Assembly: GCF_007692655.1 (NCBI RefSeq)
Contig: NZ_REBQ01000103.1
Span: forward strand, 1 to 64,000
DNA length: 64,000 nt
Source: Halomonas sp.
GTDB lineage: Bacteria > Pseudomonadota > Gammaproteobacteria > Pseudomonadales > Halomonadaceae
Reading direction: 5' to 3'
Part shown: piece by piece, positions 6,840 through 40,542 of the stretch
Layout of the letters: each line of letters opens with the position of its first letter
Position numbering within the stretch: position 1 is the first letter of the stretch
The notes under the pieces: model-generated
Database searches by the model: none
The model's input: the letters and a program-made list of their open reading frames with translations, nothing else
Told to the model about the DNA's origin: nothing
Position numbers and translations under genes: made by a program

Positions 6840-7127
6840 GTCATCCTCCTAGGTTGCCGACTTGATCAAGGAACATCACTGTCAATCAATAATGCCTATC
6901 ATACACATAGCTGAGCTTAAACGATGCCCACCAAACGTCTCTATCGATTTAGCGTGTTTTTAATATTGCTTTATTCAAAGCGCTACAGCCTTAGCAATAT
7001 GCCCGTCCACCTATGTCGCATTGGTAATCGTGCCGCCATCTTCGTATAATTCACCGCCATAAACGACTTTGAAACGATTGCCTAGCAACCGCACGGCTCT
7101 AGCCACTGTAATATCAAGGAATCAAAG

Positions 7128-7658
7128 ATGAACTTCGACAATATCCCTTCTGGCAAGGATCTCCCCAACGACGTTTATGTGGTGATTGAAATTCCAGCCA
7201 ACCACGATCCGATCAAATACGAAATTGATAAGGACATGGGCGCGCTGCTCGTAGATCGTTTCATGGCCACCCCCATGTTTTACCCGGCCAACTATGGTTT
7301 TATTCCGCACACTCTGGCAGACGATGGCGACGCCCTAGACGCTCTTGTGATAACGCCTCATCCGGTTCAGCCCGGCAGCATCATTCGCGCCCGTCCGGTA
7401 GGCATGCTGAATATGACTGACGAAGCCGGTGAAGATACCAAACTGGTTTGTGTACCCCACGCCAAACTCAGCTCGCTTTACGACGATGTCCATGAAGTCA
7501 CCGACCTACCCGAGCTGCTGCGTCAGCAGATCGCTCACTTTTTCGAGAACTATAAAGACCTCGAAAAAGGCAAATGGGTGAAGGTAGAGTCTTGGGAAGG
7601 GGCCGACGCCGCACGTAAAGCAATTGAAAAATCGGTAATTGCTTACCAAAAGGCATAA
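7128..7658 (+). CDS. ppa: Inorganic pyrophosphatase (family I)
   Basis: It hydrolyses cytosolic PPi to two phosphates, pulling biosynthetic reactions forward. The 176-residue length is that of bacterial hexameric enzymes. [20 protein letters not shown] contains the active-site tyrosine and the family I acidic motif (DGDALD, with Ala where D-x-D-P-x-D is usual); [13 protein letters not shown] lies near the C-terminus. AAGGAATCAAAG precedes the ATG. A strong intrinsic terminator follows, so it appears monocistronic. Its neighbourhood with pfp is notable since both act on PPi. Confidence 0.97.
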
Positions 7659-7702
7659 GCGTTCATGTAAGCGTGCGAACTCCCCCCTTAAAATCGCATC
7701 TA

Positions 7703-7729
7703 AAGGCCGCCGCACAAGGCGGTCTTTTT
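7703..7729 (+). terminator. Intrinsic terminator of ppa
   Basis: AAGGCCGCC and GGCGGTCTTTTT form a seven-pair GC-rich stem (one G-U pair) around GCACAA, followed by five T, about 45 bases after the ppa stop. Confidence 0.8.
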
Positions 7730-7849
7730 GTGGGAGTAGTATTAGCGCTCTATTGGCCGCGTCATGTCATCGCAGTTTGCACGCCTAGGTTTTAGAGTTG
7801 CGGTATGCTGTTTACCTTATTTTGCGATGTCATCGATTAAGGACGCACC

Positions 7850-9709
7850 GTGTTATTTGTTAAACGTCTGAGCCTATTTCCCTTACTGGTTTTGCTATTC
7901 GGCTGGTTGCCGCTTTCGGCGCAAGCCCAGTGGTTTTCCTCTTCTAGCAATCAGGATGCATTTTTACCGGTAATGGAGGCCTTCCAGCCCAGCGCCTGGC
8001 ACGATGGCGAGACGCTGTTTATCGGCCTGGATATCGCAGATGAATACTACCTATATCGGCACCAGCTGGCCGTTGAAAGCCAAACTGAGGGTGTAGCACT
8101 CGGCGAACCGCACATTCCTCCGGGCACATTCACCAACGATGAATTCATGGGCGATGTTTACATCTTTCGCGATCAGTTGGTATTTGAGGTTCCGCTGGAG
8201 TCTGCCTACGCAGGCCCCTTGAATGTTGAGCTCACGTTTCAAGGCTGTGCCGATGCAGGACTGTGCTACCCGCCGGAACGCACGAGCCTAGAGGCCAGCG
8301 AAACTGAGCCGCCCAGTCAATTTGCTCAATGGGAAGCCGATAACACCGCAACCAATGAAGTGGTCGATGCCACCGCTCCGAGCACCTTCTCTGCCCCGCA
8401 AAGCGAAGATAGTCGCTTCAGTGCCTTGATTAGCGACGCCAGCCTACCTCTTGCTCTGGGGCTGTTTTTTATTGCCGGCCTAGGTCTTACCTTCACGCCC
8501 TGCGTGTTACCGATGATTCCAATTCTTTCATCGATAGTGGTCGGCCAGAATCCCACTCGCCCACGTGCCTTCGTTCTCTCCGCCAGCTATGTGATGGGTA
8601 TGTCCCTCACCTACGCGCTCGTTGGCATGTTAATGGGGTTATTTGGAGCCGGACTTAACCTTCAGGCGCACTTACAGTCAGCCCCTGTATTGATCACGTT
8701 TGCAGCGCTATTCACACTATTTGCGCTCACCATGTTTGGGGCTTTCAATCTCAATTTTTCACCACGCTTCGCTAGCCGCGTTAATGCTTGGCAAGCACGG
8801 GCCCAACGCAGTGGCCCTGGGGGGTTAGCCTTAGCGGGTGCACTTTCGGTGCTAGTGGTTTCGCCCTGTGTCACGGCGCCCTTGGCCGGGGCGTTAGTGT
8901 TTATCTCATCCACGGGTGATGCGGTGATGGGAGGCGCAGTACTGTTTGCACTCGGCTTAGGGATGGGTATTCCCCTACTCCTCGTTGGGACCTTTGGTAC
9001 CACTCTGCTGCCGCGCACCGGCGCTTGGATGAACGGCGTCAAAATAGCGTTTGGGTTACTGCTTCTTGGCGTGGCAATTTGGATGATAGAGCGCCTGGTA
9101 GCGGCCCCTGTTGCCTTGCTGTTATGGGCTGGCCTAGCGATTGGCAGCGCACTGGCTCTGGGCGCATTATCTTTCAATCAGCCTCAGGGCTGGCCCAGGG
9201 CACGCCAGACGCTAGGCCTTATGCTACTGGCCTGGGGCGTCTTACTGGTAATTGGCGCAGCCCAAGGCGGCGGCAATCCACTCCGCCCCCTTGCCATGGC
9301 AACCATTAACCCAACTGGGCAGCAGGCAGAAGCTCTCGACTTTACTGAAGTGGATAGCTTAGCCGCACTAGAGGCAGCCATTGCCCAAGCTGAAAATGCT
9401 GGACAGCCGGTGTTCGTCCATTTCACGGCTGACTGGTGTATCTCATGCAAGCTAATGGAGCGTGATGTCTATCCCGACCCTCTTGTGTCTGCTGCGCTTA
9501 GCGATTACACCCTGATTGCCGCTGATGTAACCCATACCGGCCCACAAAGCCGCGAGCTGCTTGATCAATTCAACCTATTTGGCCCTCCCAGCCTGCTCTT
9601 TTTTAATCAACGTCAGGAAATTCGTGATGCGCGTATCCAGGGTGAAGTCACCGCCAGTCAGTTGCACGAGCACCTTGAATCGCTCAGCCACTGGATCGCC
9701 AACAGTTAA
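7850..9709 (+). CDS. dsbD: Thiol:disulfide interchange protein DsbD
   Basis: DsbD passes electrons from cytoplasmic thioredoxin across the inner membrane to periplasmic DsbC, DsbG and CcmG. The 619-residue protein has a signal peptide ending near SAQA, an N-terminal immunoglobulin-like domain with the CADAGLC cysteine pair, a central eight-helix domain with FTPCVLP and VSPCVTAP (the transmembrane redox cysteines), and a C-terminal thioredoxin domain with WCISCK. The start is GTG at 7850 with AAGGA upstream. In pseudomonads dsbD is followed by aroQ and accB; here aroQ is absent between dsbD and accB. Confidence 0.95.
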   Translation: MLFVKRLSLFPLLVLLFGWLPLSAQAQWFSSSSNQDAFLPVMEAFQPSAWHDGETLFIGLDIADEYYLYRHQLAVESQTEGVALGEPHIPPGTFTNDEFMGDVYIFRDQLVFEVPLESAYAGPLNVELTFQGCADAGLCYPPERTSLEASETEPPSQFAQWEADNTATNEVVDATAPSTFSAPQSEDSRFSALISDASLPLALGLFFIAGLGLTFTPCVLPMIPILSSIVVGQNPTRPRAFVLSASYVMGMSLTYALVGMLMGLFGAGLNLQAHLQSAPVLITFAALFTLFALTMFGAFNLNFSPRFASRVNAWQARAQRSGPGGLALAGALSVLVVSPCVTAPLAGALVFISSTGDAVMGGAVLFALGLGMGIPLLLVGTFGTTLLPRTGAWMNGVKIAFGLLLLGVAIWMIERLVAAPVALLLWAGLAIGSALALGALSFNQPQGWPRARQTLGLMLLAWGVLLVIGAAQGGGNPLRPLAMATINPTGQQAEALDFTEVDSLAALEAAIAQAENAGQPVFVHFTADWCISCKLMERDVYPDPLVSAALSDYTLIAADVTHTGPQSRELLDQFNLFGPPSLLFFNQRQEIRDARIQGEVTASQLHEHLESLSHWIANS

Positions 9710-32401: not shown

Positions 32402-33601
32402 TCATGGCTGAGCGAGTAACTGGAGAGAGTGCCAGGCAATCATCTTTGCCTCATCGGTAGCAATCACCCAGGCGCCTAAACGGCTGGACGAGGTGGTAAT
32501 ACAAGGCCCATGTTGAGTGTTGGCTTCCGTATCAAGCTCCGCCCCCAGCCATGCACAGCGCTGAACAACCCGGGCGCGCACCTCTGCCGCATGCTCGCCA
32601 ATGCCTGCGGTAAAGATTAACTGATCCAGTCCACCCAAATCCGCAGCCAATCCGCCAATTTCATGGGCAATGCGATGGCAATATAGCTCGATGGCGTCGT
32701 CCGCCTCGGCGGCTTGACTTGCAAGCAGCACCTGCATATCACCACTAATCCCCGACACCCCAAGCAACCCTGAGCGCCGATAGAGCAGATCACTCACCTC
32801 AGCGCTGCTCATTCCCTCATGGTCTAAAAGATGCAGAACAAGGCCGGGGTCTACGCTGCCGGAGCGCGTTCCCATCGGCAACCCCTCTACGGCGCTAAAC
32901 CCCATGGTGGACGATACGCTCTGCCCATTGTGCATAGCGCATAGACTGGCGCCGTTGCCTAAATGGGCAACAACCACTCGGCCACAGGAAGCCTCTGGCG
33001 GCAAGTAATCCACCAGCACACGCTGAATATAGTCATAGGAGAGCCCATGGAAGCCGTAACGCAGCAGGCCGCGATCGCTAAGCTCTCGGGGCAGCGCATA
33101 ACGGCGCACGACATCAGCTTGTTGGGCATGAAAGGCGGTGTCAAAACAGGCCACCTGCGGCACGCCAGGGAGCTGCTTGCGCAGTTGGCGTATCGGCGCC
33201 AAACAGTAAGGCTGATGTAGCGGTGCAAGCGAAGCTAACTGTTCCAGCGCGTCCACCTGGTCGTCATTGACGATTTGAGGTGCCTTAAAGTCGCGCCCGC
33301 CGTGGACTACACGATGGCCAATCCCGATGAGTTCAAGCGCGTTTGCGTGACCGGAGAGCCAACCACAAAGTTGGGAAAGCGCATCATCATGGTCGCGGGC
33401 AGGCTTTAGCCCAACGTTTTCCAACGCGATCCCGTCATTATCAAGCAGCGTGGCATTTGCTTTTCCGCCGCCCAGACCTGAAAAATGCCCGGAATAGCGC
33501 AGCTTGAGCGCCGCGGGCGTAAGAGGCTTGTGACTAGCGTGGCTGAACAGCGCAAACTTGATGCTCGATGAACCGCTATTGACGACCAATATATCGCTCA
33601 C
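32402..33601 (-). CDS. ackA: Acetate/propionate kinase
   Basis: It interconverts acetyl phosphate and acetate with ADP/ATP. The 399-residue ASKHA-fold protein has VVNSGSSSIKFALF at the N-terminus, GHRVVHGGRDF, CFDTAFH (catalytic region), YGFHGLSYDYI, VAHLGNGASLCA and FTAGIGEHAAEVR. The start is three bases from the stop of the upstream MaoC-Pta fusion, so the two form one unit that makes acetate (or propionate) and ATP from acyl-CoA. Confidence 0.95.
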   Translation of the reverse strand: MSDILVVNSGSSSIKFALFSHASHKPLTPAALKLRYSGHFSGLGGGKANATLLDNDGIALENVGLKPARDHDDALSQLCGWLSGHANALELIGIGHRVVHGGRDFKAPQIVNDDQVDALEQLASLAPLHQPYCLAPIRQLRKQLPGVPQVACFDTAFHAQQADVVRRYALPRELSDRGLLRYGFHGLSYDYIQRVLVDYLPPEASCGRVVVAHLGNGASLCAMHNGQSVSSTMGFSAVEGLPMGTRSGSVDPGLVLHLLDHEGMSSAEVSDLLYRRSGLLGVSGISGDMQVLLASQAAEADDAIELYCHRIAHEIGGLAADLGGLDQLIFTAGIGEHAAEVRARVVQRCAWLGAELDTEANTQHGPCITTSSSRLGAWVIATDEAKMIAWHSLQLLAQP

Positions 33602-33604
33602 ACG

Positions 33605-35026
33605 CTACTCCTTGTTCGCGGCATCTTTTTGACGCTGCTGAAAATCAGCGACAATAAGTGCCAGAGCGCAGGACGCCATGCGCGTTAAGGCATCGTCGGC
33701 ACGGCTGGTAAGCACAATGGGAACGCTGGCGCCCATTACTAACCCAGCCCCCGTTGCATCGGCCAAATGGGTTAGCTGTTTCATTAAAATATTGGCGGAC
33801 TCCAGGTCGGGGGCGAGTAAAATATCCGCTTTCCCAGCAACGTCTGAGCGAATGCCTTTGGTTTTAGCGGCCGCTTCCGAGATGGCGTTATCAAAGGCCA
33901 ATGGGCCATCCAAGGTGCCACCGGTAATTTGCCCACGCTCTGCCATCTTGCACAGCGCAGCGGCATCCAGCGTAGAGGCAATATTGGGGTTAATGGTTTC
34001 GACTGCCGATAAAATCGCTACTTTTGGGTTGTTATTGCCCAGGGCGTGGGCCAGGTCGATGGCGTTTTGAATAATATCGCGCTTCTGGGTCAAACCCGGC
34101 TTAATATTGATCGCCGCGTCCGTAATCAGCAGCGGTCGCGGATAAGTCGGCACATCCAGGGCCATCACATGGCTAATACAACGCTCGGTACGCAGGCCAC
34201 CTTCGCGCTTAACCACCGCTTGCATTAGCTCATCAGTATGCAGGGCACCTTTCATAATCGCGCTCACGTGCCCCTGTCGAGTGAGCTCTACTGCCTTGTC
34301 AGCCGCCGCATGGCTATGGGGGGTGTCAATCAGCTCGAAAGCTGATATATCGAGTTCGTATTTCTCTGCCGCGGCCGTTATCTTGCTTTTTGGCCCGACC
34401 AAGACCGGTATAATAAGCCGCTGCTGCGCCGCCTCAACGGCACCGCGCAACGAACTTTCATCAACGGGATGCACCACTGCCATGCGGATCGGCTCGGGAT
34501 GGTCAGCCGCGCTCAGTATCTCATGCAGCCTGCCCCGCTCCGCCAGCCGTATGGTCGGCATAATCGCCCTTGGCATGCGCACTTTCGTGGTGGGTGCCAT
34601 CACCTGGGCCTCACCCTCGATGACCACTTCACCGTCCTGGTTTTGGCAAAGACAGGCGAAGGTGACGATATGCCTATCGCTATGTTTATCGGTCACTCGT
34701 ACGCTAACCCGTAGCACATCGCCCAGGGTAACCGGTGCTTTGAAGCGCAATGTCTGACCGACATAAACCGTACCAGGCCCGGGAAGCTGGGTGCCCAATA
34801 CAGTCGAAATGAGGGCCCCTCCCCACATCCCATGGGCAATGACTTCATGAAATCGGCTGCTTTTGGCAAAATCTTCATCTAAATGGGCAGGATTAACATC
34901 GCCGGACATGATGGCAAAGAGCTTGATGTCCTCCATGGTCAAACGTTTTTCTAAAAACGCTTCTTCACCTAGCGCTATTTCATCAAAGGTACGATTTTCA
35001 ATAACGCTGTTATCATGCTGGTCCAT
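33605..35026 (-). CDS. MaoC-like hydratase fused to phosphate acetyl/butyryltransferase
   Basis: A 473-residue fusion. Residues about 10-150 form a MaoC hot-dog domain (SGDVNPAHLDEDFA, then HGMWGGALISTVLG); about 160-473 form a phosphotransacylase domain (MAVVHPVDESSL, MKGALHTDELMQAV, RCISHVMALDVPTYPRPL, SAVETINPN). The phosphotransacylase half transfers acyl from CoA to phosphate; AckA then makes ATP. The MaoC half suggests crotonyl-CoA-like hydration, so butyryl substrates are possible. ATG 35026 has GGGAG seven bases upstream; a TTG nine codons earlier lacks a site. Operon with ackA. Confidence 0.92.
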   Translation of the reverse strand: MDQHDNSVIENRTFDEIALGEEAFLEKRLTMEDIKLFAIMSGDVNPAHLDEDFAKSSRFHEVIAHGMWGGALISTVLGTQLPGPGTVYVGQTLRFKAPVTLGDVLRVSVRVTDKHSDRHIVTFACLCQNQDGEVVIEGEAQVMAPTTKVRMPRAIMPTIRLAERGRLHEILSAADHPEPIRMAVVHPVDESSLRGAVEAAQQRLIIPVLVGPKSKITAAAEKYELDISAFELIDTPHSHAAADKAVELTRQGHVSAIMKGALHTDELMQAVVKREGGLRTERCISHVMALDVPTYPRPLLITDAAINIKPGLTQKRDIIQNAIDLAHALGNNNPKVAILSAVETINPNIASTLDAAALCKMAERGQITGGTLDGPLAFDNAISEAAAKTKGIRSDVAGKADILLAPDLESANILMKQLTHLADATGAGLVMGASVPIVLTSRADDALTRMASCALALIVADFQQRQKDAANKE

Positions 35027-35125
35027 TGCGATACTCCCTGTTGTTGCGTTCAAAGCATCTATGCTGGTGTGCTATACCCTCAGCCTGCATCTGTGCTTAG
35101 GTTAACCAATGTAGGTAGATTGATT

Positions 35126-35166
35126 CTGAGCAAGATCAATTTTTTACGCATCACTACCTATATACT
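35126..35166 (+). promoter_or_regulatory. FNR/Anr-like site and -10 element of the DUF1538 operon
   Basis: CTGAGcaagATCAA (35126-35139) matches TTGATnnnnATCAA at 8 of 10 positions. Its centre lies about 41 bases before the start predicted from the -10 element TATACT (35161-35166), the classical class II activator spacing. The same bases also form ATTGAT(10)ATCAAT followed by T5, so a hairpin function is an alternative. Confidence 0.45.
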
Positions 35167-35224
35167 GTAGCGTCTATAACAACGCCTATAAGCACTACAC
35201 TCCCCTTACAATACGGAAAACTTG

Positions 35225-35992
35225 ATGGATTTAGTGGTTTCCCTTGCCCGCCAATTTAAAGATAGCCTCCGTGATCTAGCGCCAGTTGTACTGGTGATGG
35301 CATTTTTTCAGCTAGTGGTTATCCGTCAGCCCCTGCCAGAATCGTTAGCCTTGCTTGATCTAGCCTTAGGCTTGGTCTTTGTGGTCGTCGGGCTAACGCT
35401 ATTTATTAAAGGACTCGAGTTGGGGCTTTTCCCCTTGGGAGAAAACCTTGCCCGAGCGTTTGTAAAAAAAGGCTCGGTAGCCTGGTTGTTACTGTTTGCC
35501 TTTGCCCTGGGGTTTGGCTCCACAGTGGCAGAGCCTGCACTCATCGCCATTGCCGCACGCGCAGCAGAGGTGGTGGCTCAAGGTGGACTCATTGCAGATA
35601 CCGGCAGCTCACAAAACAGCTTTGCATTTGCACTGCGCATGGTGGTGGCTGTCTCGGTAGGTACAGCGGTAGTACTGGGCGTGGTGCGTATTTTTAAAGG
35701 CTGGCCTCTTCATCTCATCATTATTGCCGGCTATGTATTGGTGCTGCTCTTAACGCTAATAGCCCCTGCTGAGATGATCGGCATCGCCTATGATTCTGGC
35801 GGCGTCACGACATCAACGATAACAGTACCCTTGGTGACTGCCTTAGGTGTTGGATTAGCATCTTCGATAAAAGGCCGTAGCCCTATGCTCGACGGTTTTG
35901 GCCTGATTGCATTAGCATCTGTAATGCCGATTATTTTTGTACTGCTATTTGGCATTATCGGCATTCACCTGATACCAGGAGTCACCCCATGA
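35225..35992 (+). CDS. DUF1538 membrane protein, first subunit
   Basis: A 255-residue inner-membrane protein with about seven hydrophobic segments. Two stretches recur in the next gene: [23 protein letters not shown] and, near the C-terminus, the region from [14 protein letters not shown] through the [16 protein letters not shown] motif. These define DUF1538, a family without assigned function that looks like a carrier half. The first codon may be TTG 35222 or ATG 35225; I chose ATG. Its stop overlaps the next start (ATGA), and a PII-like gene follows, so the three form an operon. Confidence 0.85.
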
Positions 35993-36756
35993 CCCTGCTC
36001 GTGACTTTTTGGGGCACGCTGCTGGATATACTCCCCATTGCAGCGATTATCTTCGGCTTTCAATATCTGGTGATTCGCAAACCTGTAAAACGCCTCCCCC
36101 AAGTATTGGCTGGATTTTTTATGGTTTGGGTAGGGCTCTCTTTTTTTCTGGTGGGCTTAGAGCAAGCACTGTTCCCAATGGGCGAGCTAATGGCCAGCCA
36201 GCTGACCAGAAGTGAGTTTCTACCTAGCATCGCTGAGGATGCTCAACGCCACTGGAGTGACTACTACTGGGTATATATCTTCGCGTTTGCGATTGGTGCC
36301 AGCACCACGATCGCCGAACCTTCATTGATTGCCGTGTCTTTGAAAGCGGGCGAAATTTCTGGCGGCACCATTAATCCGCTAATGCTACGTATTGCCGTTG
36401 CACTCGGCATGGCCTTTGGCATTACCCTGGGAACATGGCGAATTGTGATGGGCTGGCCACTGCAGTGGTTCGTATTGGCAGCTTACCTGCTGGTAATTGT
36501 TCAGACTTTACGTTCACCACGCGCCATTATACCGCTAGCATTTGACTCCGGCGGGGTCACAACCTCAACCATAACGGTACCGATTATTGCAGCGTTAGGC
36601 TTAGGTTTGGCATCAGCAATTCCTGGTCGCAGCCCTGTTCTGGATGGTTTCGGCATGATCGCCCTTGCCTGCTTATTCCCTATTATTACGGTGATGGGTT
36701 ACGCTCAGATTGCTCAATGGCGAGTGAAACGACGATCCAATGAACCACTCAATTAA
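35989..36756 (+). CDS. DUF1538 membrane protein, second subunit
   Basis: A 255-residue paralogue of the preceding protein, with the same two signature stretches ([23 protein letters not shown] and [14 protein letters not shown] plus [15 protein letters not shown]). The two equal-length halves, with AEP and SGGVTTS motifs in each, suggest a heterodimeric channel or carrier resembling an internally duplicated transporter. Translation is coupled to the first subunit by ATGA. Solute unknown; the adjacent PII-like protein hints at nitrogen-, carbon- or nucleotide-linked gating. Confidence 0.85.
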
Positions 36757-36812
36757 GCCCGTTAATGTCTTAGCGTATTTTATAATTAAGCCGTTAGGAA
36801 AAGGAGATCACA

Positions 36813-37151
36813 ATGCGCTTTAAACTGATTGTCGCCATGGTGGAAGATGATTTAACCGATGCCATTCTGGAGGCTGCTCGCCAAGCGGGTTCCACAGGGG
36901 CAACGGTGATTAACAATGCTCGTGGCGAAGGACTAAAAAAAGCCCACGGCATTTTTGGCATGGAAATAACTGCTCAACGAGACATGCTGATGTTCCTGGC
37001 GGAAGAGCACCGCAGCCGACATATTCTTGAGGCGATTGCTAAGGTCGGTGAATTTGACGAAACCCCTGGCACGGGTATCGCCTTTCAGTTAGATGTCGAG
37101 GATGCCGTTGGGGTTAAAAATCAGATCAAGTCACTTTCTTCCCCTGAATAG
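36813..37151 (+). CDS. PII-like signalling protein of the DUF1538 operon
   Basis: A 112-residue protein with the ferredoxin-like PII fold pattern: MRFKLIVAMVEDDLTDAILEAARQAGSTGATVINNARG then a shortened T-loop (EGLKKAHGIFGMEI) without the uridylylated Tyr51 of GlnB, and a distinct B-loop (FDETPGTGIAFQLDVED). It therefore belongs to the PII-like group that binds nucleotides but is not part of GlnD control. AAAAGGAG precedes the ATG. By analogy with GlnK-AmtB and SbtB-SbtA, it probably regulates the membrane pair encoded upstream. Confidence 0.85.
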   Translation: MRFKLIVAMVEDDLTDAILEAARQAGSTGATVINNARGEGLKKAHGIFGMEITAQRDMLMFLAEEHRSRHILEAIAKVGEFDETPGTGIAFQLDVEDAVGVKNQIKSLSSPE

Positions 37152-37194
37152 CAAACGCGCTCATAAGCTAGCTTGTGATGGATACGCTCAGGAA

Positions 37195-38130
37195 CTAACT
37201 CATACGCCAGCGACGCCACTGGCGTATTAACACGCCGTGCTTGGGTGAAAACAGCAGTGCGACAAAGAACCAGCTGGTAGCCACCAACACTATGGTGCCG
37301 CCAGAGGCCACATCCAGCACCACCGAAAGCCACAGACCTATCACCGCTGAGCTCACCCCAACGCTGACTGAAATCAGCATCATGGTTTTAAAACGGTCAG
37401 TGAGCAGGTGTGCGGTAGCCCCTGGGGTAATCAGCATCGCCACCACTAAAATGATACCGACGGTCTCTAAACTCGCCACGATGGTAAGCGTTAACAGCAA
37501 GATTAGTCCGTAGTGAATCACGCTGGTATTAAACCCCAGCGCCTGGGCCTGTTGGGGATCAAAAGCGTAAAGAAGCAGCGGCCGGTAAGCTAGCCACACC
37601 ACGAGCAGTGCAATCACACTGGCCACCAACGTCAATAGCAGCGCTGACTGCTGAACACCCAGCACGTTGCCAAACAGAATATGCATGAGATGGGTGCTTG
37701 AGGCGATTTTGCTGATAATCACGATGCCCAGCGCAAACGCCCCGGTAAACATGAGCCCCATCGCGGCATCGGATTTAATCCGCGTATGCCGCTCAATAGC
37801 GCCGATACCCACCGAGGTAAGCGCACCGGTAATAAAAGCCCCGATAAAAAATGGCCACCCCAGCAAATAGGCAATCGCCACCCCGGGTAGCACTGCGTGG
37901 GAGATCGCATCCCCTAGCAATGACCAGCGTTTCAGCACCACATAACAGGATAAAATACCGCAAATAGCGCCCACTAGTACCGACGTTAATAAGGCTCGCT
38001 GCATAAACGCGTATTGGAAGGCATCTGAAATGCTACCAGGCAAAATATTCACAATAACCATGAGAGCAGCGATCAGCCCACTCACCACGGCATCGCCGAA
38101 TAGGCCAAGTGCCACCATTAGTTCTGCCAC
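37195..38130 (-). CDS. Mn(II)/Fe(II)-type metal ABC transporter permease
   Basis: A 311-residue permease of the ABC-3 (ZnuB/MntB/SitD) family with about eight to nine helices. QRALLTSVLVGAICGILSCYVVLKRWSLLGDAISHAVLPG, then HILFGNVLGVQ and VAMLITPGATAHLLTDRF, are characteristic. It follows the ATPase gene by five bases. Manganese is the likely cargo because the cluster is divergent from mntR with an MntR-type box between. Confidence 0.92.
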   Translation of the reverse strand: MAELMVALGLFGDAVVSGLIAALMVIVNILPGSISDAFQYAFMQRALLTSVLVGAICGILSCYVVLKRWSLLGDAISHAVLPGVAIAYLLGWPFFIGAFITGALTSVGIGAIERHTRIKSDAAMGLMFTGAFALGIVIISKIASSTHLMHILFGNVLGVQQSALLLTLVASVIALLVVWLAYRPLLLYAFDPQQAQALGFNTSVIHYGLILLLTLTIVASLETVGIILVVAMLITPGATAHLLTDRFKTMMLISVSVGVSSAVIGLWLSVVLDVASGGTIVLVATSWFFVALLFSPKHGVLIRQWRRWRMS

Positions 38131-38135
38131 TTCAT

Positions 38136-38963
38136 TTACCCCTGAGCTGCCATATAGGAAGTTGCTTCAGCAACCTTCATATCATTTGCCGACTGTTCAA
38201 TAGAACTCACTGCAAGCTCGGCCAATTTGGCATCACTCAGCATGTCATTAGGCGTGCCCACACCACGAATAAACCGGTTGATTAACACCACGTGATCAAC
38301 ATGGCGACGAGCGCCGGGCATATCATGGGTCACCATAATCACCGTACGCCCCGCCTCGCGCTCACGGGCCAGCACATTTAAAATCAATCGCTCGCTGGGT
38401 GGATCTACCCCCGCCAATGGCTCATCAAGCAGTAAAATACTGGCCTGCTGGGCAAGCGCCCGGGCAAGTAACACACGCTTTTTCTGCCCGCCAGAGAGCG
38501 CGCCAATGGGTCGTTCAGCCAGCCCCAGCATATCTACCGCCTTTAGCGCTTCACGTACGGCCTCGGCATGGCGGGGAGCATACCAACGCGAAGGGAGTAG
38601 TCGCCGCCACAAGGGATCATGGCGCATATGCCCGTAGCGGCCACCCATAACGGTCTCCCACACCGAGACAGGGAAGTCCCATTCAATCGCTTCCCGCTGC
38701 GCCATATAGGCGATGTGCCCAGCTTTACGGTGAGCCGAGATCGGCTCACCAAATGCCCGCACGCTGCCACGCAGTGGCTTCATGCTGCCGGTAAGCACAT
38801 GGAAAAGCGTGGACTTACCCGCCCCATTCGGGCCCACGATGGCAGTCCACTTACCTGCTGGGAATTGCAAGTTAATGTCTTCAAGCACTGGGTGACGCTG
38901 ATAGGCGGCGTAGAGCCCTTTTATATCAACCGCCACCGAAGCATCGCCAAACGTCGTTGCCAT
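38136..38963 (-). CDS. Mn(II)-type metal ABC transporter ATPase
   Basis: The 275-residue ATP-hydrolysing subunit. Walker A is VGPNGAGKSTLF, the signature is LSGGQKKRVLLARALA, Walker B is ILLLDEPLAGVD, and the switch His is in MVTHD. EWDFPVSVWETVMGGRYGHM is typical of the MntA/SitB branch. The ATG is six bases after the binding-protein stop, so the three genes (binding protein, ATPase, permease) form one operon. Confidence 0.93.
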   Translation of the reverse strand: MATTFGDASVAVDIKGLYAAYQRHPVLEDINLQFPAGKWTAIVGPNGAGKSTLFHVLTGSMKPLRGSVRAFGEPISAHRKAGHIAYMAQREAIEWDFPVSVWETVMGGRYGHMRHDPLWRRLLPSRWYAPRHAEAVREALKAVDMLGLAERPIGALSGGQKKRVLLARALAQQASILLLDEPLAGVDPPSERLILNVLAREREAGRTVIMVTHDMPGARRHVDHVVLINRFIRGVGTPNDMLSDAKLAELAVSSIEQSANDMKVAEATSYMAAQG

Positions 38964-38969
38964 GATTGT

Positions 38970-39878
38970 TTACTCAGTTGCCAACGTTTGGCGTAATAGC
39001 TCAACGTTGTAGCGCATCATACTGAAATAATCGCCTGCTTCGCCATTGGGCTCACTCAGTGAGTCAACATAGAGCGGCCCTGCCACGTCCAGGCCCGTAT
39101 CACGAGCCAAGCTGGTCACATGGCGATCGGAAATGGTGCTCTCCCAAAAAAGGGCCGGCGGCTGAAGCTCTTCAATCTTATCGACGATACGCATCAGCTG
39201 GCGAGGGGAGCCCTCGGTTTCCGCATTGGTACCCCAAATGCCATCGTGCTCAAAATTATAGGCATCAGCAAAATACAAAAAAGCGGCTTCGCTACTAAAC
39301 AGGACACGCCGCTCGTCTGGGATTGCCTCTAAACGCTCTTGCAGTTCAACATGCAGCGCATGTAGCTCGTCTTTCAGGGCGTCAGCTCGTAGCTGCACCT
39401 CTTCAGCACGCTGAGGCAGCAAATGCTCCAGCTCATTGGCGATGACTTGCACATAGGCCGAAACGGCGCGTGGATCCATCCATAGATGAGGGTCTGTATC
39501 GCCCTCCATTTCGCCAATCATAATTTGCTGGGTGGGATACTTGGACTTTTCAGCGATCGCAATGACAGGGGTTCTGTCCACAACCGTAGACTCAACTTGG
39601 TGCATCCACTGCTCTAACTGATAACCGTTGTAGAAAACCACGTCAGCGTCTTCCAGGGTGGCGAAATTCCCCGGCGTTAGCTCCCACTCGTGGACTTCAG
39701 CACCAACGGGAGTCAATACTGAAACGTTAGCGTCTTCACCTGCTACGCGAGCCACAATGTCGCCAAGCACAGAGAAAGTGACGGCAACATTTAAAGTATC
39801 TTCCGCCTCAGCATTCGCCATTGCGGCGCTCAGCCACAGCGGCAGACTCACGACCATGCAAAGATTACGCTTGTTCAT
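38970..39878 (-). CDS. Mn(II)-type metal ABC transporter substrate-binding protein
   Basis: A 302-residue periplasmic cluster A-I protein with signal peptide (cleavage near ANA-EAE). The four likely metal ligands are His in AEVHEWELTP, His in DPHLWMDPRA, Glu in SSEAAFLYFADAY and Asp in STISDRHV. The His-His-Glu-Asp set fits Mn/Fe-binding SitA/PsaA/MntC rather than zinc ZnuA with its His-rich loop, which is absent here. First gene of the operon, facing mntR. Confidence 0.92.
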   Translation of the reverse strand: MNKRNLCMVVSLPLWLSAAMANAEAEDTLNVAVTFSVLGDIVARVAGEDANVSVLTPVGAEVHEWELTPGNFATLEDADVVFYNGYQLEQWMHQVESTVVDRTPVIAIAEKSKYPTQQIMIGEMEGDTDPHLWMDPRAVSAYVQVIANELEHLLPQRAEEVQLRADALKDELHALHVELQERLEAIPDERRVLFSSEAAFLYFADAYNFEHDGIWGTNAETEGSPRQLMRIVDKIEELQPPALFWESTISDRHVTSLARDTGLDVAGPLYVDSLSEPNGEAGDYFSMMRYNVELLRQTLATE

Positions 39879-39949
39879 TTCCTGAATCCCCCGTTTTAAG
39901 TGTTTTGATGAGTAAACTGTAGCCCAATAAGAATGCTTTATGCAAATAG

Positions 39950-39965
39950 TTTAGCCTTGGCTAAC
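39950..39965. promoter_or_regulatory. Predicted MntR operator between the Mn transporter and mntR
   Basis: TTAGCC-TT-GGCTAA (39951-39964) is a palindrome. Its reverse strand TAGCCAAGGCTA differs by one base from the core TAGCAAAGGCTA of E. coli MntR boxes as I recall them. It lies about 75 bases from the transporter start and 100 from the mntR start, suitable for repression of the transporter with Mn. Confidence 0.75.
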
Positions 39966-40065
39966 AATGTTGCGCAAAAATGCGCTACTATTCCAAGGGC
40001 TATATCAAATACTATCTCAAGTACTATCCAATGATTATTACCACTATCTCCGATATAATTTGCCA

Positions 40066-40542
40066 ATGACTGATTCTAATTCGCACGCTTCATCATCCGC
40101 CCCAAGCATTCCTGGCGATGCCCTGCCTCCCGTGGAGCAGCATGCTCAGCAATATGCAACGGTGCGAAACGCCCATGAAACTGAACTAATAGAAGACTAC
40201 GTTGAGCTGATTGGCGATCTCTTAATGCATCGCGGCGAAGCGCGGGCAGCGGATATTGCCTCCCGCATGGCGGTCAGCCAAGCCACCGTGTCAAAAATGA
40301 TTCGGCGCCTAAATGAGCTGGAGCTGGTGACAAGCAAGCCTTACCGCTCACTGTTTCTGACCGAAGCAGGCAAAAAAATGGCTGAAACCTCCCGTGCCCG
40401 CCACGATATTGTGCTGCACTTTTTGCGCGCATTGGGGGTTACGGATGCGACGGCACGTATTGATGCAGAAGGCATGGAGCACCACGTTAGCGATGAAACA
40501 CTCGCTATCATGCAGCGCTTTACTGAACAGCATCAGAAGTAA
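40066..40542 (+). CDS. mntR: Manganese-responsive transcriptional regulator MntR
   Basis: A 158-residue DtxR/MntR-type repressor close to E. coli MntR. After a polar N-terminal extension come NAHETELIEDYVELIGDLL, the winged helix-turn-helix (ADIASRMAVSQATVSKMIRRL) and the metal/dimer part ending in IDAEGMEHHVSDETLAIM, where the Glu-x-x-x-His pattern matches MntR. I chose ATG 40066 because the protein then aligns with the family. The ribosome site is weak; an earlier in-frame start (39967) would add 33 residues without family support. Confidence 0.92.
   Translation: MTDSNSHASSSAPSIPGDALPPVEQHAQQYATVRNAHETELIEDYVELIGDLLMHRGEARAADIASRMAVSQATVSKMIRRLNELELVTSKPYRSLFLTEAGKKMAETSRARHDIVLHFLRALGVTDATARIDAEGMEHHVSDETLAIMQRFTEQHQK

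Follow-up and report, generated by a model that had tools for sequence, protein, structure and literature searches.

Within the window, by which we mean the whole 64,000-nucleotide stretch of Halomonas sp. DNA that was analysed, three consecutive genes on the + strand were read as open reading frames: a umpA-like gene, a umpB-like gene and a gene for a PII-like protein. The features of this locus are as follows.

35222, + strand: alternative TTG start of the UmpA-like protein, adding one residue (256 aa)
35225..35992, + strand: UmpA-like membrane protein of the DUF1538 family, 255 aa with the ATG start at 35225; PF07556
35531..35533, + strand: Glu of the UmpA AEP motif, residue 104 if the TTG is residue 1; the same in all 20 UmpA proteins aligned
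35792..35830, + strand: 13-residue motif of UmpA, from the sequence and the UmpA alignment
35989..35992, + strand: ATGA start/stop overlap of umpA and umpB, from the sequence
35989..36756, + strand: UmpB-like DUF1538 membrane protein, 255 aa; PF07556 and NF041628
36316..36318, + strand: Glu110 of the UmpB AEP motif, at the break of the model between helices 89-108 and 111-123 (alignment and model)
36544..36582, + strand: 13-residue motif of UmpB, residues 186-198 (alignment and model)
36802..36806, + strand: Shine-Dalgarno-like AGGAG ahead of the PII-like gene, read off the sequence
36813..37151, + strand: PII-like protein, partner of UmpAB, 112 aa; PF00543

The open reading frames, together with matches of both membrane proteins to PF07556, bear out what the original prediction had described here, namely two paralogous membrane proteins of equal length (255 residues) coupled by ATGA. 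It had pointed to AEP and a second shared motif; AEP and the 13-residue motif are present in both DUF1538 proteins. Position 35126, from which the system had been counted, falls in the non-coding stretch 5' of umpA.

The neighbouring genes lie on the - strand. Upstream and divergent from umpA are genes for an acetate kinase and a bifunctional enoyl-CoA hydratase/phosphate acetyltransferase (32402-35053), and downstream are AztABC/Mnt-like metal ABC transporter genes (37195-40542). A gene for an MntR-type regulator divergently adjoins these transporter genes. No second DUF1538 gene was found in the genome to which the window belongs, which is 90.6% complete, and another contig of that genome holds two P-II matches stronger than that of the PII-like gene. 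A scan with the UmpB alignment supplied relatives, at least 594 loci in all, and the closest of these, 80 named loci, were retained. Among them, Vreelandella boliviensis and V. sedimenti are the closest named relatives by UmpB, with 91% identity, and on this ground the window probably comes from Vreelandella, a genus split from Halomonas.

Control by a riboswitch was considered and set aside: positions 34000-38200 of the window gave no Rfam match at E up to 1, and a search of seven relative loci at gathering thresholds yielded only a TPP riboswitch in L046, some 2.7 kb upstream of its umpA. Scans of positions 35000-37300 returned one promoter-like site, on the - strand inside umpB (shuffled sequences gave 2.5, sd 1.9), and four terminator-like sites (shuffled sequences 2.5, sd 1.6). 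None of the promoter- or terminator-like sites in this interval accounts for control of the operon.

The DUF1538 pair

Both membrane proteins matched PF07556 (DUF1538), UmpA with an E value of 1.9e-63 (214 bits) and UmpB with 5.6e-66 (222.3 bits), against a gathering score of 22.6, and 110 of their 234 aligned residues are identical to one another (47%). UmpB passed the equivalog cut-off of NCBIfam model NF041628 (509 versus 500 bits). UmpA fell below that of NF041627 (436 versus 490 bits), which counts against our reading of the carrier, and UmpA of V. boliviensis likewise misses this cut-off, with 428 bits. The two models are titled 'Na,Li,K/H(+) antiporter subunit UmpA' and the same for 'UmpB'. 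Because one of the two cut-offs was missed, the carrier is, on its profile scores, called UmpAB-like here rather than a named equivalog.

The original prediction held that the solute and mechanism of DUF1538 were unassigned. This is contradicted by the NCBIfam models and by a 2017 paper in which the DUF1538 pair UmpAB of Halomonas zhaodongensis is reported as a heterodimeric Na+(Li+,K+)/H+ antiporter (PMC5484666). According to that paper, co-expressed UmpA and UmpB allow E. coli KNabc to tolerate 0.4 M NaCl and 30 mM LiCl, the two proteins co-immunoprecipitate, the antiport is pH-dependent, and cation/proton antiport needs both subunits. Its umpAB subclone and pETDuet-1 construct are described as umpA and umpB only, the text describes no gene past umpB in the 4.2-kb clone, and 'PII' or 'P-II' has 0 occurrences in the main text (PMC5484666). 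DUF1538 is also listed with MnhB and MrpF in a machine-learned pH-adaptation table of Pfam families from 2026 (PMC13255231), and the available text of a study of cable bacteria treats UmpAB as a marker of salt adaptation and leaves PII unmentioned (PMC12093952). Of the undescribed regulated carrier that had been proposed, the carrier has turned out to be known. No description of its regulator was found: in the open-licence literature, a scope outside which most subscription papers and preprints lie, we came across neither a PII nor a CBS partner reported for UmpAB.

For structural modelling, the window's UmpB was folded instead of a natural UmpA-UmpB fusion, the alignment of which appeared to place both subunits mainly on its first half. 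The AlphaFold2 model of UmpB (pLDDT 93.4) has nine helices, which break at AEP and again within the 13-residue motif, where residues 191-195 separate helix 181-190 from helix 196-210. All 94 sequences of both subunits have Glu110 and Asp186, which lie at or near the modelled breaks and are plausible candidates for the cation site. Foldseek returned no PDB match to the UmpB model at E < 0.001 (best E 0.14), the best match in a second structural comparison was MgtE (Z 5.5, rmsd 3.6, 101 residues), which is in the chance range for helical proteins, and the UmpA profile had no PDB sequence relative at E up to 1. The predicted fold of UmpB is without a clear PDB match, and the lack of a listed match does not establish a new fold.

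Seven membrane segments are predicted for UmpA and UmpB in the published work (PMC5484666). Assuming seven segments, and with loop borders set by hand from the UmpB model, we counted Lys and Arg in each of the two alternating sets of loops. The excess was on one set in 76 of 77 UmpA proteins and on the opposite set in all 80 UmpB proteins, and in three natural fusions the N half was patterned like UmpA (3/3) and the C half like UmpB (3/3). By the positive-inside rule, these mirror-image patterns imply that UmpA would be oriented N-in/C-out and UmpB N-out/C-in, as an antiparallel heterodimer, and antiparallel subunits could be fused A to B without an additional helix.

Two loci showed unusual gene structures. 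In an otherwise split lineage, L078 has a single open frame of about 620 aa across UmpA and UmpB (6894-8753); this is a metagenome-assembled genome, in which a sequencing error is possible. In L069 (Vibrio crassostreae, 7369-8315) the umpA match is in two separate open stretches, and umpB and the PII gene appear intact.

Linkage of the PII-like and CBS-domain genes with DUF1538

The PII-like gene lies downstream of umpB on the same strand in 77 of the 80 named loci. The three exceptions, L045 with the PII-like gene upstream on the opposite strand and L076 and L112 with none adjoining, speak against our reading. In a phylum sample of 299 genomes, 29 of the best 30 loci have a PII-like gene (the exception, L033, is another point against our reading); DUF1538 was found in 116 of these genomes and the PII-like protein, at E up to 1e-12, in 115, with both in 110, DUF1538 only in 6, the PII-like protein only in 5 and neither in 178. 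Fisher's test gives p ~3e-67 for this co-occurrence, a value which is inflated because the sampled genomes are related; counted by genus, each of the two families is present in 36 of 153 genera.

It also weighs against our reading that PII scores below 70 bits, a weak match, in 20 of the 110 genomes counted as having both. The weak match is directly behind a long fused DUF1538 frame in seven loci (G005, G013, G018, G026, G060, G085 and G109), these being the loci with long fused DUF1538 frames for which both positions were to hand. Among the PII matches of 97 bits or more, at least 84 of 111 are directly downstream of a DUF1538 match among the DUF1538 matches listed, with a median gap of 68 between the matched stretches (84 pairs). 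The other 27 include contig ends and paralogues elsewhere in the genome, and the occurrence in some genomes of PII-like paralogues away from DUF1538 is a further point against a dedicated partnership.

Within the genus of the window, 45 of 82 genomes have DUF1538, 45 have the PII-like protein and 44 have both, including G329 and G371, where both are present in pieces. G355 and G333, which account for the two mismatches, have fragments interrupted by in-frame stops and otherwise show no match to the DUF1538/PII system. The fragment in G333 (C4, 180455-180601) is of the PII gene, and tblastn with the window's PII protein gave 82% over 45 residues; the one in G355 (C10, 202851-203090) is of DUF1538, and tblastn with the window's proteins found nothing there. 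In all 30 genus loci inspected the PII-like gene adjoins DUF1538.

Nine records of a plasmid collection encode DUF1538, with 26.8-33.0% identity to UmpB. Seven of the nine, from Bacillota and Alphaproteobacteria, were inspected, and in all seven a PII gene is directly behind DUF1538. In the five Bacillota plasmid loci (L197, L199, L200, L202 and L203) a fused antiporter gene is followed by a tandem two-domain PII gene, of which the second domain matches strongly and the first less so (8.8 bits for the weaker domain in L197). A different arrangement was seen in Marinospirillum celere (L040, 10704-13295), where a second cassette behind the first comprises a fused DUF1538 gene (495 aa), PII, CBS and another PII. 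From the named loci, the phylum genomes and the plasmids alike, the PII-like gene is a near-obligate partner of the DUF1538 pair. The linkage that the original prediction expected in other genomes is conserved, and the first of its refuting conditions, an absence of such linkage, does not hold.

In 76 loci the downstream sequence extends for 500 nt or more, and in 70 of these a gene for a CBS-domain protein of about 130 residues is behind PII. Four of these proteins were tested against Pfam and all four matched CBS, two of them in two stretches. The CBS gene overlaps the PII gene in 66 of 73 cases, when its start is set at the first permitted codon found from 15 nt ahead of the PII gene's end onwards. 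CBS domains are often nucleotide-sensing modules, and the second repeat mostly keeps the pattern G-h-h-S-x-x-D/N (Ser in 55/73, Asp or Asn in 56/73), the adenosine-binding pattern of a CBS repeat; in the first repeat the corresponding Thr position is Leu or Met in 57/73.

No CBS gene is present at the locus in the window, in V. boliviensis or in V. sedimenti. A search elsewhere in the window's genome gave just two matches, both weak (32% and 27% identity) and both within longer open frames, and on this ground the CBS partner is taken to be absent from that genome. CBS was found in 15 of 30 genus loci, 9 of these being among the 24 in which umpA and umpB are separate genes. It was also present in 21 of the 30 loci from the phylum sample, where flanks are short, and in 0 of 7 plasmid loci; the genus and plasmid counts do not favour our reading. 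Considering the counts across named, genus, phylum and plasmid loci, PII accompanies DUF1538 constantly, and the CBS protein is often added. When open frames near the 80 loci were clustered, by a procedure that undercounts (PII 63, CBS 59), DUF1538, PII and CBS were the only families found in more than 15 loci.

The PII-like protein

The third gene product matches PF00543 (P-II) with an E value of 2.8e-12, and its model (pLDDT 81.4) has the ferredoxin-like fold of PII. The best structural match is GlnZ (4cnz; Z 14.0, rmsd 2.5, 99 residues), and CPII, SbtB, GlnK and GlnZ are all among the matches listed by Foldseek, with sequence identities of about 15-29% in the structural matches listed. The uridylylation Tyr of canonical GlnB/GlnK sits in the T-loop. 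In agreement with the original prediction, which had noted the lack of this residue, the T-loop region (residues 36-56) of the window's protein has no Tyr, and only 3 of 77 aligned family members have one there.

In canonical GlnB/GlnK, Q39, K90, R101 and R103 are residues that bind ATP and 2-oxoglutarate; we transferred their positions through the alignment with GlnZ, reading conservation over the 77 family members. Q39 corresponds to a variable residue 42, K90 to residue 89, which is Ile in 72/77, R101 to G100, which is Gly in 77/77, and R103 to a variable residue 102, so that the canonical residues for the ATP phosphates and for 2-oxoglutarate are missing. Since these positions are not kept, canonical binding of Mg-ATP and 2-oxoglutarate is unlikely; any ligand would presumably be bound in a different manner, and nucleotide binding is a guess. 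The glycines of the PII ligand-site loops are kept: G38, G88 and G100 in 77/77 and G86 in 72/77.

The T-loop of this family is short and hydrophobic, with the consensus KTFFGL (GIFGM in the window) and Gly49 in 77/77. As judged by alignment, the T-loop motif and the invariant G100 distinguish this PII-like subfamily from CPII and other PII proteins. Genus loci without CBS have a more ragged PII C-terminus, and their residue 58 is mostly Met in place of Val; these differences may be a clade marker and no more. The paralogues of the family seen in the phylum sample (L118-L137) are mostly away from DUF1538, with L125 and L135 retaining a DUF1538 match, and several of them adjoin a gene which, by eye, resembles one for a secreted SH3-domain protein.

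A possible mechanism and its alternatives

From these analyses we consider it probable that the operon in the window codes for an antiporter of the UmpAB type, exchanging Na+(Li+,K+) for H+, that is gated by a PII-family regulator of its own. UmpA and UmpB would pair as an antiparallel heterodimer, each subunit having conserved acidic residues at its helix breaks or close to them, and would exchange outgoing Na+ (or K+, Li+) for H+. The PII-like protein, which is most likely trimeric, would dock on the cytoplasmic face through its short hydrophobic T-loop and throttle the antiporter on a small-molecule signal, most plausibly an adenine nucleotide reporting the energy state. The CBS protein, absent in the window, could be a second input in most relatives examined, probably of adenylate type, and it is because of this partner that an adenylate is our best guess for the signal. 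A need to throttle such antiporters is to be expected, since Na+/H+ antiporters spend the proton gradient. To a wider proposal we give as much credence as doubt: UmpAB may form the transporting core of a larger conserved machine of three or four genes. This core, an antiparallel heterodimer without clear PDB fold match, would be gated by its own PII subfamily, in which the canonical ATP/2-oxoglutarate site would have been abandoned, and, among most of the relatives examined, also by a coupled CBS protein, so that Na+/H+ exchange would be tied to the adenylate energy charge.

Published constructs with umpA and umpB only gave E. coli salt tolerance (PMC5484666), so this PII is not needed for transport. 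Because umpAB worked in E. coli without this PII, the PII-like protein is probably a gate or brake and not a transport subunit. The same experiment argues against the proposal, which we consider unlikely, that PII is a structural or assembly subunit, permanently bound and stabilising UmpAB with no signal-dependent gate (PMC5484666). Such a subunit would fit the near-obligate linkage, the tight gene order and the loss of the canonical ligand-binding residues. However, the ligand-site loop glycines are conserved, and the usual neighbour in relatives is a CBS-domain protein, a class that often senses nucleotides. A different proposal is that the Na+(K+)/H+ exchange seen in E. coli is incidental, and that the native substrate of DUF1538 is something else, such as bicarbonate, ammonium or an organic ion, whose movement is coupled to that of Na+ or H+, with PII reporting the carbon or nitrogen state. 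PII partners do serve the uptake of ammonium, nitrate, urea and bicarbonate (PMC10710835), and one experimentally characterised DUF1538 pair was found in the literature. We nevertheless regard this as quite improbable, given the pH-dependent Na+(Li+,K+)/H+ antiport reported for UmpAB (PMC5484666) and the place of DUF1538 beside MnhB and MrpF in the pH-adaptation table (PMC13255231); furthermore, no family beyond DUF1538, PII and CBS recurs around the loci above the level given earlier.

The paralogues away from DUF1538, several adjoining the SH3-domain-like genes seen by eye, would agree with a PII-like protein that is merely co-expressed and acts on another target, either transcription or an enzyme. 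This is very improbable in our view. PII keeps its place beside DUF1538 across phyla and where the antiporter genes are fused, the two are present or absent together within one genus (44 of 82 genomes with both), and none of the other genes is as widely associated with the unit. The reading from which the work began, a carrier of a wholly unassigned family, still has the Pfam name DUF1538 in its favour, but is hardly tenable beside the UmpAB publication (PMC5484666) and the NCBIfam models for UmpA and UmpB.

If the gated antiporter is the correct reading, the published characterisation of UmpAB would have been done without its regulator. On the wider proposal, this would be the first PII-controlled cation/proton antiporter found in the literature searched, with the proton-motive-force cost of Na+/H+ exchange tied to the adenylate energy charge. 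What appears to be new is the PII-like regulator, and often the CBS protein, beside a UmpAB-type antiporter, seemingly overlooked so far. With such a regulator tied to this family of antiporters in at least two phyla, the reach of PII control would go beyond nutrient uptake and take in the homeostasis of salt and pH. The proposal lends itself to direct tests, because the linked genes are simple to delete and natural fusions exist.

Among known systems, the H. zhaodongensis UmpAB likewise consists of paired paralogous DUF1538 proteins from overlapping genes, of 254 and 271 aa there and 255 and 255 aa here; it has been treated as a two-component antiporter (PMC5484666), and in the window copy UmpA falls below the equivalog cut-off. 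CPII and other PII and PII-like proteins in the PDB have the same fold as the window's PII protein and differ from it in the T-loop motif and G100. DarA, of the PII-like class, and DarB, a CBS protein, provide another likeness. These B. subtilis c-di-AMP receptors also place a PII-like and a stand-alone CBS protein in ion homeostasis, a likeness of domain class (PMC7900238).

In AmtB-GlnK and SbtA-SbtB, as in the window, a transporter gene is linked to a PII-family gene. There the PII trimer docks on the cytoplasmic side, its T-loop enters the carrier and transport is limited (PMC8352866, PMC10710835), and in one cyanobacterium SbtA is reported to function independently of SbtB (PMC8352866). 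The PII-regulated AmtB, Amt1, Nrt, Urt and SbtA are uptake systems, all described as blocked or inhibited (PMC10710835). AmtB-GlnK and SbtA-SbtB serve ammonium and bicarbonate uptake, whereas the partner in the window belongs to a cation/proton antiporter family; unlike theirs, its PII protein has neither the T-loop Tyr nor the residues for the canonical ligands, and most relatives have a CBS protein in addition. Our best reading, by analogy, is that the unit would work on the principle of AmtB-GlnK and SbtA-SbtB applied to a cation/proton antiporter, and we would file it under neither.
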